The position numbers and the translations under genes were made by a program. A stretch of DNA of 64,000 nucleotides. Source: Thermoproteota archaeon. GTDB taxonomy: Archaea; Thermoproteota; Methanomethylicia; Culexarchaeales; B10-G16. The DNA lies in assembly GCA_003649185.1 (NCBI GenBank), contig QMRB01000001.1, forward strand, positions 1-64,000. The letters run 5' to 3'. This document shows positions 25,634-56,082 of this stretch, piece after piece (position 1 is the stretch's first letter; each line of letters begins with the position of its first letter). The notes beneath the pieces are model-generated. The model worked only from the letters and a program-made list of their open reading frames with translations. It was not told the DNA's origin and did not search any database.

Positions 25634-26017
25634 TTGGGATTGGAGGCTTCAACGATAATCATAGAGATCGCGAAGAACGATATATCGAGAAGAATGGAGA
25701 TTATAAGTCAGCTTCACAGGAACCAGATAATCTATGAACTAGATGATATGGGAAATATTCTCATAGATGGATTTGGATTGGAGAAGAGAAGGGAGAAGGC
25801 TGAGAAAGACTTCTTCATAAAATATGAATTGAAGGATGGAAATGTAGTTAAATGGGTATATGTGAAGATGGAGGAGCCTGACATATACTATAGAATTAAA
25901 GCATTATACTGTGTTTCGAGAAGAGCATATATAGATGCTTTGAAGAAGAGGATGCTTCCGCCGAGCTACATAAATCTAGCCAAGTCAACTTTAAGATGCG
26001 AAGTCGTCAAGGGCTAA
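25634..26017 (+). CDS. Hypothetical protein, 127 residues
   Basis: Soluble, charged protein with helices at the N-terminus (IAKNDISRRMEIISQLHRNQIIYELDD) and a strand-rich middle (FIKYELKDGNVVKWVYVKM). The TTG at 25634 is supported by GGTGAG at 25622-25627 and by the upstream TATA box. The 3' end overlaps the convergent HerA-like gene by 11 nt. I do not recognise the family and infer no function. Confidence 0.65.
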   Translation: MGLEASTIIIEIAKNDISRRMEIISQLHRNQIIYELDDMGNILIDGFGLEKRREKAEKDFFIKYELKDGNVVKWVYVKMEEPDIYYRIKALYCVSRRAYIDALKKRMLPPSYINLAKSTLRCEVVKG

Positions 26018-28979
26018 GGCAAAGTTTACAGCCTCTCTTAATTCTGAAAAACTTTTTAACAGTTATGAGACAAGAGGGGCAGACGAGGGTTCCGCAGTTT
26101 GGACATTGAACAGCATGAGCTTTACAGATGGTTCTTCCACATGCTGGACAAGTGTAAGCGTCATTTTTACATATGGTTTTACCGCATATGGAACAGATAT
26201 ATTTCTCTTCATGTGAACAGAATGTTTTACCGCAAATATCGCATTTCCAACTGTCTTCCAAACAGACTTTGCTGCCGCAGATACTGCACTCTCTTATACA
26301 GTTGGGGCAAACATCCCTTCCACATATATCGCATTTAGTTAGAGATAACTTGCAGACTTCTTCTCCACATATAGGACATTTCTTCAAATGCTCCTTATAA
26401 TGCTTTTCACAGTATGGTAATCCACATTCCTCACAGATTTGAATATGGCTTGGACAGTATGTAATGTTTAGGCCGCAGTTAACACAGTGTTTTTCACAGT
26501 TGGAGCAAAGCTTAGCTCCGCAGATTGAGCATTCTGAAAACTTTTCCTCGCTGCAGAAGGTTCCTCCACATATGTCGCATCGCCAGGAATGCTCTTCACA
26601 GACTGTTCTACCACACTTCTCACATTTAATGGAATGCTCTTCACAGATTGGAGCCAAACATATGGCGCATAGATTTAGTTCATCCAGTTTTTTAAATGCT
26701 CTTCCACATTGGATACAGGTTCCGAAGACGCCTTGCCCATTGAAGCCGTTCCATTTAACACTAAGTATTCTATTTACAGTTCCATTGGAAATTTTTAGTT
26801 GAGCATTGAAAAATGGAATCCAGATGAGTTTAAAGGAGTCTACATGGATGTTGCTTCTGCCGATTTTGATGAGAACCGTTTTAACTTCAGGGTTTCCCTG
26901 ATTCTTAGAGGAGGCTTCAATCTCTTTAAGCTTTAAGTCCCTTTCCTCCTTAAGCTTTGAGACTACTTTTTGTTCTCTTCTAATTTTAATCGTCAATTCT
27001 TCTATATGTTTATTGAGCCTTGCAAGCTTCAGCTCTCTACTTCTAATTTTACTTGAAATTTTAAGATATTTCTCCTCTCTTTTACATGTTTTAATTTGAT
27101 TTTGAAGAATTTTTAATTCTCGAATTAATTTTTTAACGACATCTCCAGTTATGGATAACTGGTCTTTTAGCAGCCTCAATTTCGACTCATGCTTCTCAAT
27201 CTCGCCTGAATATTTCTCACTGATCTTTTCAGCATTCTCTTTTAGAAGCTTCTCTTCAAGCATATTTATTCTTGAAATAAAAGAGTCATATGATTCTCCG
27301 GGCTTAGAATAGATCTTAAATTTAGGAGAGTAGTAAACTTTGAATTTAAATGTCAAAGTGAGAAAGGATATGAAGTCTTCTAATAGCTTTCTGAAACCGC
27401 TTAGACTTGAAAGCGGTTCAGCTATCTTTGAGAAGAACAATTTTTCATGGGATTCAGGTTCACTCGATAAATCTTCAGTCTCAAACTCTTTAACATTGAA
27501 AGCTGATTTGGAGAGCCAATCTAAATCTTTCATTCCATTTAGCACTGGAATGAGACATGTATATTTTGAGGATAATTCTATTTGTGGTCGACTTCTCCTA
27601 CCTATAATTGTTGCATGGATTGATAGTGCAGGATAATAGTGGAGAGATCCATCTTCCAATTCAAAGCTGTAATTCCATCTTTTTCTAAGCTTTTCAAGGA
27701 TGGTTTCACCGTTAAATTTAACCTTCAAGAAGAATTGATCTATTATCGGTGCAATTTTAGGCTTTTCAACCTCAACTTTTTCAGAACTTCTTCTAAGTAG
27801 AAGCTTAGCTTTCTCCCTGGCGGACTCTAATTCGTCTTTAGAAATATATTTTAAAGGATTGAAGCCGGCTCCGCCATGCATAGTCTCCCTATATCTAACT
27901 CTCACAATTATTGGAATTCGCTCTATAACTTCACCTGTAACTATAGCTTCCCCTACATTGAGCCAGCTTATATCCCTTTCCCACCCTCTACTTAACCCTC
28001 CACCTTCAACTGCTATTCTAACATCATTTGGATCTGTCAATCTGTGAATTATCCACGTACCGCTTAGACTTCTAATAGTTGTATCTAAAAGTTGAGGTCT
28101 CTGTGTAACTACTATTAGGTTTGCTCCAAACTTTCTTCCCTCCTGGGAGAACTTTTTAAGTATGGGAAGAGAGTTGACTCTATCTCTTCCAGCAAATCTA
28201 TGGGCTTCATCCACTATTAGATAGAAGGGTATGATTTGCCGCCTTATCGCAGCATCCAATAATTTTTCAGCCACCTCTCTAACTATGGTTACTTGGCGTT
28301 TTTCATCTAGACCTCTCAAATTTATTATTATGCATTTACCTGCCAAAACTAGATCTTCAGCTGGAAAGGATTTTAATTCTGAAATGTCTATGTCTGCAGT
28401 TGGATTGAACCTTAAATCTCCAAACTCTATGATAAAATCTGTATAGCTTCTAGGGGTTGTTCCAAACTCCTCTGATCCAGACTCGGCTGGAACTTTTAGA
28501 CTTGAATACTCGCCATGTACATCTATAACGATTATGGGTATACCTTTCTTTAGAAACTCTTCAATTAAAACTCCAACAGTATATGATTTGCCGGAGCCAG
28601 GTTTACCTACAACGAATATTCTTGTAATCCTTTTAATTGGAAGATAAATTTTATAATTATATCCCTTCAGCAATCCAAGATAGATGGAGGTAGATTCATC
28701 TGAAGTTAAGCCGAGAATTCTTCTAACATTTCTCTCACTTCCAAGAAAGACTTTATCTCCAGATTTGAATGGTGTGGGTGGAGGTTGACCTAAAACTTCA
28801 CATTCTGCAAGTAAGTCTTCACCACTCCTCTTGAGATTTTTAACCATCAATACATACCAGAAACCATCATGAAACAGTTCTACAAACTCGTTTAAACCTA
28901 CTTTGCCTAGAACTTTCATGGTGAAACCGTAGACGGTTGGATCGCCTATAACTACGCCTATTGCTCTTCCATCAGCCAT
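26007..28979 (-). CDS. HerA/FtsK-type ATPase fused to coiled coil and about 14 zinc modules
   Basis: A 990-residue protein. Residues 1-90 resemble a HAS-barrel. Residues 115-400 are a HerA-like hexameric ATPase with Walker A GKPGSGKS (125-132), VIDVHGEYSSL, Walker B LIVDEAH (254-260) and TQRP sensor. Residues 410-580 are of unknown fold, 580-690 are predicted coiled coil, and 753-990 are a cysteine-rich string of about 14 CxxCG units at a spacing of roughly 15-17 residues, several followed by C-x2-H. HerA proteins are bidirectional DNA translocases that pair with NurA; no nurA, mre11 or rad50 is nearby. The start at ATG 28979 has GGAGAG 7 nt upstream. The role of the zinc string (protein, RNA or ubiquitin-like binding) is open. 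Confidence 0.85.
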   Translation of the reverse strand: MADGRAIGVVIGDPTVYGFTMKVLGKVGLNEFVELFHDGFWYVLMVKNLKRSGEDLLAECEVLGQPPPTPFKSGDKVFLGSERNVRRILGLTSDESTSIYLGLLKGYNYKIYLPIKRITRIFVVGKPGSGKSYTVGVLIEEFLKKGIPIIVIDVHGEYSSLKVPAESGSEEFGTTPRSYTDFIIEFGDLRFNPTADIDISELKSFPAEDLVLAGKCIIINLRGLDEKRQVTIVREVAEKLLDAAIRRQIIPFYLIVDEAHRFAGRDRVNSLPILKKFSQEGRKFGANLIVVTQRPQLLDTTIRSLSGTWIIHRLTDPNDVRIAVEGGGLSRGWERDISWLNVGEAIVTGEVIERIPIIVRVRYRETMHGGAGFNPLKYISKDELESAREKAKLLLRRSSEKVEVEKPKIAPIIDQFFLKVKFNGETILEKLRKRWNYSFELEDGSLHYYPALSIHATIIGRRSRPQIELSSKYTCLIPVLNGMKDLDWLSKSAFNVKEFETEDLSSEPESHEKLFFSKIAEPLSSLSGFRKLLEDFISFLTLTFKFKVYYSPKFKIYSKPGESYDSFISRINMLEEKLLKENAEKISEKYSGEIEKHESKLRLLKDQLSITGDVVKKLIRELKILQNQIKTCKREEKYLKISSKIRSRELKLARLNKHIEELTIKIRREQKVVSKLKEERDLKLKEIEASSKNQGNPEVKTVLIKIGRSNIHVDSFKLIWIPFFNAQLKISNGTVNRILSVKWNGFNGQGVFGTCIQCGRAFKKLDELNLCAICLAPICEEHSIKCEKCGRTVCEEHSWRCDICGGTFCSEEKFSECSICGAKLCSNCEKHCVNCGLNITYCPSHIQICEECGLPYCEKHYKEHLKKCPICGEEVCKLSLTKCDICGRDVCPNCIRECSICGSKVCLEDSWKCDICGKTFCSHEEKYICSICGKTICKNDAYTCPACGRTICKAHAVQCPNCGTLVCPSCLITVKKFFRIKRGCKLCLSP

Positions 28980-29059
28980 GAAGCCACTCTCCAAGTAAAT
29001 TATAATAGTGAGAGGAGATAAATTAAAGTAGCCTAATTAACGATGAAAAGGGTTTGAAG

Positions 29060-55402: not shown

Positions 55403-55645
55403 ATGAATCTACTGTTCATCGGCTTCCTCTTAATCGTAGCAGGCTTCATAGTCATATTTCTTGGATTTTTAATCGGATTTTTGAAGGGGGAAGGTAAAAG
55501 TGAAGGGGGAGGAATAATTCTGATAGGCCCCTTCCCGATAGTTTGGGGGTCGAATTCCAGAATTGCTACTATAATGTTAATCGCCACATTAATCATCATG
55601 ATAACCATATTAATATTTATGATGGGAGGTTTCATTGAATGGTGA
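55403..55645 (+). CDS. DUF131 (TIGR00304) family membrane protein
   Basis: An 80-residue protein with two membrane helices (about 5-26 and 55-75) joined by a loop containing EGGGIILIGPFPIVWGSN, the hallmark Gly-Pro-Phe/Pro segment of DUF131. The family is archaeal and unstudied. The 3' end overlaps the next gene, which carries the same domain behind a zinc module, so the pair is a tandem duplication with domain gain. Spacing and overlap imply one transcript. GGAGGA lies 7 nt before the ATG. Confidence 0.8.
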   Translation: MNLLFIGFLLIVAGFIVIFLGFLIGFLKGEGKSEGGGIILIGPFPIVWGSNSRIATIMLIATLIIMITILIFMMGGFIEW

Positions 55646-56082
55646 AATGCGAAATATGCCATATAAACGATGCAAAATATGTCTGTTCAGACTGTGGAAG
55701 AAAGGTTTGTGAAAACTGTTTCGATCCATACTCATGGCTATGTATTCAATGCCTCGAAAAAAGAAAACCTACAAAGCTCTTAACTACGTATGGTGAGGAG
55801 AGAAAAATGAACAGTACATATCCAATTATAATGAAAAGCACCATAATCGGATTTATAATGATCTTTATTGGAACCATTATTATAATGTTCTCATCGCTTC
55901 TCATGGGAGGAAAATTTTCAACCGGAATTATAATATTTCCCTTCATCCCACTGCCTTTGATCATTGGAACTGGACCAAACTCGGAAATTCTAATTGTAAT
56001 GGGACTTTTAATGGTGATTTCAATAATACTTATAATGATTATTTATTGGAGAATGGGAAGAACTGATTCACTTAACATATAA
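55639..56082 (+). CDS. Zinc-binding module fused to DUF131 membrane domain
   Basis: A 147-residue protein. The first 45 residues hold CEICHIND, CSDCGRKVCENC and CIQC, a B-box-like double zinc module. The remainder (about 65-140) has two helices and the DUF131-type loop IIIFPFIPLPLIIGTGPNSE. The start overlaps the upstream DUF131 gene by 7 nt. The zinc module is similar in style to the CxxC modules of the HerA-like protein at 26-29 kb. The 3' end overlaps the convergent methyltransferase gene by 15 nt. Confidence 0.8.
   Translation: MVKCEICHINDAKYVCSDCGRKVCENCFDPYSWLCIQCLEKRKPTKLLTTYGEERKMNSTYPIIMKSTIIGFIMIFIGTIIIMFSSLLMGGKFSTGIIIFPFIPLPLIIGTGPNSEILIVMGLLMVISIILIMIIYWRMGRTDSLNI

Follow-up and report, generated by a model that had tools for sequence, protein, structure and literature searches.

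We analysed a window of 64,000 nucleotides from a Thermoproteota archaeon of the Culexarchaeales (contig QMRB01000001.1, positions 1 to 64,000 of the forward strand) and focused on one gene on its reverse strand (26007-28994). On its sequence, the encoded protein is an ATPase of the HerA/FtsK superfamily with intact Walker motifs, which carries a long C-terminal arm made of a beta-domain, a coiled coil and an array of predicted zinc modules. We propose, at a probability of roughly 45%, that it would act as a DNA translocase whose zinc array serves as a targeting arm. This proposal is based on arms of the same kind that we found attached to further DNA motors of archaea and to Mrr nucleases.

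The gene is a single open frame of 995 codons from a TTG start; an in-frame ATG at 28979 (Met6) is the likelier start and better fits the N-termini of the relatives. A structure model of the monomer (mean predicted local distance difference test score, pLDDT, of 87) and profile matches gave the following order from the N- to the C-terminus, with all coordinates on the reverse strand: a HAS-barrel-like beta-barrel (residues about 12-95; 28710-28961), a RecA-like ATPase core (about 96-385; 27840-28709), the first part of a beta-domain (about 408-568; 27291-27773), an antiparallel coiled-coil hairpin (569-697, with helices 569-636 and 640-697; 26904-27290), the second part of the beta-domain, with the motif LIWIP...WNGFNGxG (about 698-756; 26727-26903), and the zinc array (757-995; 26010-26726). 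In the model itself, the barrel covers residues 13-84, the ATPase about 87-385 and the second beta part 705-749. A preliminary description of the window had recognised the ATPase, the long coiled coil and the array, all of which we found again, and had omitted the beta-domain that flanks the coiled coil (about 410-560 and 700-750).

The ATPase core matched the DUF87/HerA family PF01935 above its cut-off (E = 6.5e-16), and the closest solved structure, by sequence (E = 1.4e-21) as well as by fold (Foldseek E = 3.6e-24), was that of Sulfolobus HerA (4d2i), which bears out the HerA-type assignment made before. Among the 34 sequences of the family, no variation was seen in G130, G133, G135, K136 and S137 of the Walker A motif (GKPGSGKS, residues 130-137; 28584-28607) or in D262, E263, A264 and H265 of the Walker B motif, which ends in DEAH (residues 258-265; 28200-28223). 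The N-terminus scored 15 bits against the HAS barrel family PF09378 (cut-off 25.2); the model has beta strands in this region and the fold match to HerA covers the full length. HerA, the DNA translocase that partners NurA in archaea, has the RecA-like core, the Walker motifs, the overall fold and probably the HAS-barrel-like N-terminus in common with the window protein. The nearest ATPase cores were found in Asgard HerA-like proteins of about 490-610 residues (Loki-, Hermod-, Odin-, Hel- and Baldrarchaeota; loci L067-L122). These are 38-51% identical to the window protein over about residues 12-413 and group with its family in the ATPase tree, but they stop at a short coiled coil past the ATPase and have neither the beta-domain nor zinc modules.

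The tail (residues 757-995) contains 46 cysteines in 239 residues, compared to 4 in the first 756, and 18 CxxC motifs, compared to a mean of 8.6 (standard deviation 2.4) when the order of its residues was shuffled. In total, we counted 27 C-x2-[C/H/E/D] knuckles (up to 28 in relatives) at a spacing of 7-8 residues, with CxxC alternating with CxxH/C/E along the tail. This alternation suggests 14 four-ligand modules of about 15 residues each, in agreement with the string of about 14 tandem zinc modules in the preliminary description. The spacing is compatible with ligand pairing within a module as well as with cross-brace pairing. The model of the tail is confident (pLDDT 90.9). In relatives found with the whole protein, which are 37-54% identical, nearly all knuckle cysteines are invariant, which indicates that the array is under selection. 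The Trp, Gly and His residues between the ligands and the C-terminal cap (CxxC...KKFFRIKRGCKLC) are conserved as well. We predict that the tail binds zinc and that the array forms a zinc rod. The earlier estimate of more than 80 zinc sites per hexamer holds arithmetically (6 x 14 = 84) and presumes a hexamer with full loading. Within the relatives searched, strong array matches were confined to the window-family protein. In one genus of Nezhaarchaeota the array is shorter (L062 has 20 knuckles), showing that modules can be lost. The genome of the window also encodes a 92-residue protein (L042:1384-1662) with a few CxxC knuckles resembling those of the array.

We searched for further arms with residues 408-995 and found them in four settings. 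The first are HerA_C/DUF87-type ATPases of about 800 residues (L236-L239 and L246-L248) from Thermoproteota, including the class of the window. They have the same beta/coiled-coil/beta domain, with beta parts matching those of the window protein (hhalign E = 4e-20 and 2.6e-6), but they belong to another ATPase subfamily, have no HAS barrel ahead of the ATPase, with which they begin, and lack the zinc array.

The second are HerA_C-type ATPases of 880-1030 residues from Asgard archaea and Thermoproteota (L216-L226, L228-L235, L240, L242, L243, L245, L250 and L252), in which motor, coiled coil and zinc array are combined as in the window protein, whereas the ATPase is of a separate lineage and the array has 3-12 CxxC motifs instead of 18. 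The Asgard proteins share both beta parts with the window protein (hhalign E = 2.5e-9 for the first and 1.4e-8 for the second), and several members have a similar C-terminal cap. Among 196 Asgard genomes, 33 had a match to the arm, one of them of the SNF2-linked type described below. For the zinc-bearing Thermoproteota proteins (L240-L252), the hhalign comparison of the beta parts was not significant, and their link to the window protein therefore rests on the array and the coiled coil. In the ATPase tree, the two zinc-bearing HerA-like lineages were separate (a single clade gave p = 0.024 in the approximately unbiased test), a result of moderate weight given the long branches. The occurrence of the arm on two separate ATPase lineages looks like that of a mobile module acquired by DNA motors. 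Five Asgard genomes (L217, L218, L221, L222 and L223) have a conserved gene for a small GTPase, along with a second gene, in divergent orientation near that of the HerA_C-type zinc-array ATPase.

In the third setting, an Mrr_cat nuclease domain, scoring above the Pfam cut-off, is fused to a tandem zinc array. We found four such Thermoproteota proteins of varied layout (L241:6104-7720, L244:5789-7384, L249:6298-7824/L253:2869-4395 and L251:5166-6431). Here the nuclease replaces the motor and there is no long coiled coil; no curated family was found for the array of these fusions.

In the fourth setting, the motor is a separate SNF2 helicase gene located just upstream of the zinc-array gene, as found on three haloarchaeal plasmids (the Haloferax copy is broken) and in one Asgard genome. 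Haloarchaeal plasmid cassettes of SNF2 followed by a coiled-coil zinc-knuckle protein are present at L173:3590-9626, L174, L175:169-4697 and L177:3212-6125, with the copy at L174 interrupted by stops. Their arrays are very variable in length, from one to dozens of knuckles, and they mostly lie near a restriction-endonuclease gene; three of the haloarchaeal cases have a gene for Mrr or a restriction endonuclease in the vicinity. Two more haloarchaeal relatives have just one or two knuckles each. In the Asgard case (L227:4253-10846), genes for the SNF2 helicase, a zinc-array protein of 1169 residues and a coiled-coil protein of 411 residues follow each other on one strand, and the SNF2 protein is homologous to those of the haloarchaeal cassettes (32-35% identity). 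The SNF2-linked zinc-array proteins have an N-domain, a coiled coil, a beta part and a zinc array (16-43 CxxC in the long ones). Besides the haloarchaeal arrays, searches of plasmids and phages yielded distant ATPase matches only.

Against the profile of the window array, the arrays scored 47-101 bits, while shuffles with fixed Cys and His positions reached a maximum of 24-43 bits. Every tested case, the Mrr fusions included, was above its shuffles, so the likeness exceeds cysteine spacing. Neither the Mrr-fused nor the SNF2-linked proteins have beta parts significantly like those of the window protein, so for these two types homology is supported by the zinc array (together with layout), and we do not claim it over the full length.

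DNA pumps, SNF2 motors and DNA endonucleases are the enzymes with which the arm is found, and most simply it would hold the substrate they share, DNA or a DNA-bound complex. Its recurrence on DNA motors and Mrr nucleases points to DNA over general protein contacts. In the mechanism that we propose, the HerA/FtsK-type core would form a ring, probably hexameric, and would move on double-stranded DNA through ATP hydrolysis. A beta/coiled-coil arm tipped by the rod of 14 zinc modules would project from each subunit, and the six arms, by binding to DNA or to a complex on it, would select, load or anchor the substrate. Since the arm begins after the C-terminus of the ATPase, it may lie close to the face on which HerA has its helix bundle, which would suit a loader or selector. 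A nuclease or processing partner, encoded elsewhere, would act in trans. Slightly more tentatively, beta-domain, coiled coil and expandable zinc rod may together constitute an undescribed, interchangeable targeting arm of archaea, present on at least two lineages of HerA-like pumps and on Mrr-type nucleases, supplied in trans to SNF2 motors, and in Methanomethylicia built into a DNA motor that is conserved on the chromosome. No curated family with this architecture was found in Pfam or NCBIfam; nor was it described in the literature searched, which covered few subscription papers, so that a prior description is possible.

Several observations weigh against a DNA-targeting role. The argument for DNA binding by the arm, from its recurrence with DNA enzymes, is an indirect one, and for the Mrr-fused and SNF2-linked proteins the profiles of the beta parts gave no significant match to those of the window protein. 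The Asgard sister ATPase has no zinc array whatever, and no partner gene is kept beside the window family across orders. Finally, FYVE, B-box and RING-like fingers, which are mostly protein or lipid binders, are among the weak profile matches of the array. The main rival keeps the DNA-translocating motor and takes the array as a protein-docking scaffold of the B-box, FYVE or RING-like kind that makes no contact with DNA. So many similar modules would suit multivalent docking, and the small GTPase gene near the HerA_C-type gene in the five Asgard genomes also speaks for this reading. However, that GTPase gene is on the opposite strand and occurs only in fairly close relatives, and the FYVE, zinc-ribbon and B-box matches of the window tail all stay far under the Pfam gathering cut-offs. 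The likeness to B-box and treble-clef arrays in the preliminary description thus turned out to be weak, and no fold match of the tail was obtained in the PDB at E <= 0.001 (Foldseek). For the arm, Foldseek returned coiled-coil and chance matches only from the PDB, and low template-modelling-score matches of giant viruses and phages from viral models, which we did not use. As the recurrent partners of the arm are DNA motors and nucleases, we regard a docking role as plausible but less likely.

The distribution of the family bears on a second alternative. Relatives were located by an alignment-based scan of genome contigs, a single-protein query having given no matches. Of 398 genomes of the phylum, 34 have the complete family protein, with one gene each (split where contigs break); 29 of these genomes belong to the class of the window (Methanomethylicia, including Culexarchaeales) and 5 to two more distant families (Bathyarchaeota lineages). 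The relatives comprise Culexarchaeum, Culexmicrobium, Methanosuratincola, other Methanomethylicota, Nezhaarchaeota WYZ-LMO8, Bathyarchaeota B24, QZM_A2_bin_24 and QZM_A2_bin_28. The ATPase (69% identity) and the zinc array (54%) are closer to those of Culexarchaeum than are the first beta part (40%) and the coiled coil (27%), which suggests that both ends are constrained while the spacer drifts. The number of modules is fixed in most of the family. Neighbouring genes are mostly housekeeping genes that differ between orders. Co-occurring neighbours in other archaea had been seen as a route to partners, and none is conserved across orders. We rejected a conserved operon partner, since each of the neighbour families (among them 10, 15, 17, 76, 82 and 83) is restricted to one order, and many of them lie on the opposite strand. 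In the window, an open reading frame of 127 codons (25634-26017, forward strand) is convergent with the ATPase gene and overlaps it by 11 bases; Culexarchaeum and Culexmicrobium have it in the corresponding position, and it had no match in a Pfam search.

A role in defence, in which they would capture the DNA of invaders, has been proposed for HerA/FtsK motors (PMC12839542). By analogy with HerA-nuclease defence systems, the array might recognise foreign DNA or invader complexes while the motor feeds a nuclease. The Mrr fusions and the SNF2-array-Mrr neighbourhoods are in line with such a restriction motor, as are the matches of the core to the PADLOC models of HerA (E = 1.2e-28) and mad8 (E = 5.9e-24). 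Mad8, of the MADS defence systems, shares the compact HerA-like core (window residues 116-376), but its PADLOC model is without the arm, and we found no defence operon context at the loci of the window family and no nuclease gene adjoining them. The gene is a single copy among housekeeping neighbours in most genomes of the class, with conserved length and module number, and the array does not diversify, unlike the usual tendency of defence sensors. An anti-invader function is thus improbable for the window family.

A further possibility is that the protein is a diverged HerA that serves end resection with NurA and Mre11-Rad50, the tail being mere decoration. The HerA fold, and the presence of NurA in 19 of 19 genomes tested, would fit. 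HerA has a helix bundle, inserted into its ATPase core, that forms the putative entrance (PMC9960219). In the alignment with 4d2i, the corresponding stretch of Sulfolobus HerA is 108 residues long (184-292) and that of the window protein 40 (166-206), and DSSP assigned no helix bundle inside the ATPase core of the model. Its scores against the NCBIfam HerA equivalogs were 85.7 and 82 bits, about one tenth of the cut-offs of 800 and 970. Moreover, nurA adjoins the family gene in 0 of the 19 genomes, for which reason we rejected NurA as partner, and the three NurA genes in the genome of the window each lie beside their own DUF87 ATPase on other contigs (C4, C70 and C94). The lack of a nearby nurA and the idea of a machine distinct from HerA-NurA, both put forward in the preliminary description, are thus upheld. 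These results indicate that the window protein is not a canonical HerA, from which it also differs by its C-terminal arm of 600 residues, and they make a role as diverged HerA very improbable. Lastly, a metallothionein-like array that stores or senses metal and only regulates the ATPase, as its very high cysteine content might suggest, is hardly credible, because module number is fixed in most of the family and the strict module spacing, the conserved Trp, Gly and His and the conserved cap argue for a folded rod and not a metal sponge.

The same genome encodes a further compact ATPase of the HerA-like kind, which has a long coiled coil (L006, contig C80) and a PDDEXK_1 nuclease match about 0.6 kb upstream, and a DUF87 ATPase whose N-terminal region is long and rich in serine (L007, contig C34). 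Within the window, a protein of 147 residues (55639-56082, forward strand) had been described as a DUF131 membrane protein with a related zinc module. It does have membrane helices and, at residues 4-29, a zinc segment resembling a B-box (ANCHR-like B-box, E = 6e-5, below cut-off), whereas the DUF131 assignment was not supported, as there was no match to DUF131 in Pfam.

HerA-like motors are usually distinguished by their nuclease partner. What is new here is the arm, which recurs in combination with other DNA motors and with Mrr nucleases. The preliminary description had not recognised this recurrence, nor the wide conservation of the family, the missing helix bundle and the zinc-less sister core in Asgard archaea. 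As the ATPase core is common to Asgard archaea and Methanomethylicia, its job is likely old, and the arm seems to have been added later. The window protein would be a motor with its own long zinc rod, and since like rods occur on nucleases and other motors, knowing what one such arm binds would inform several uncharacterised families of archaea.

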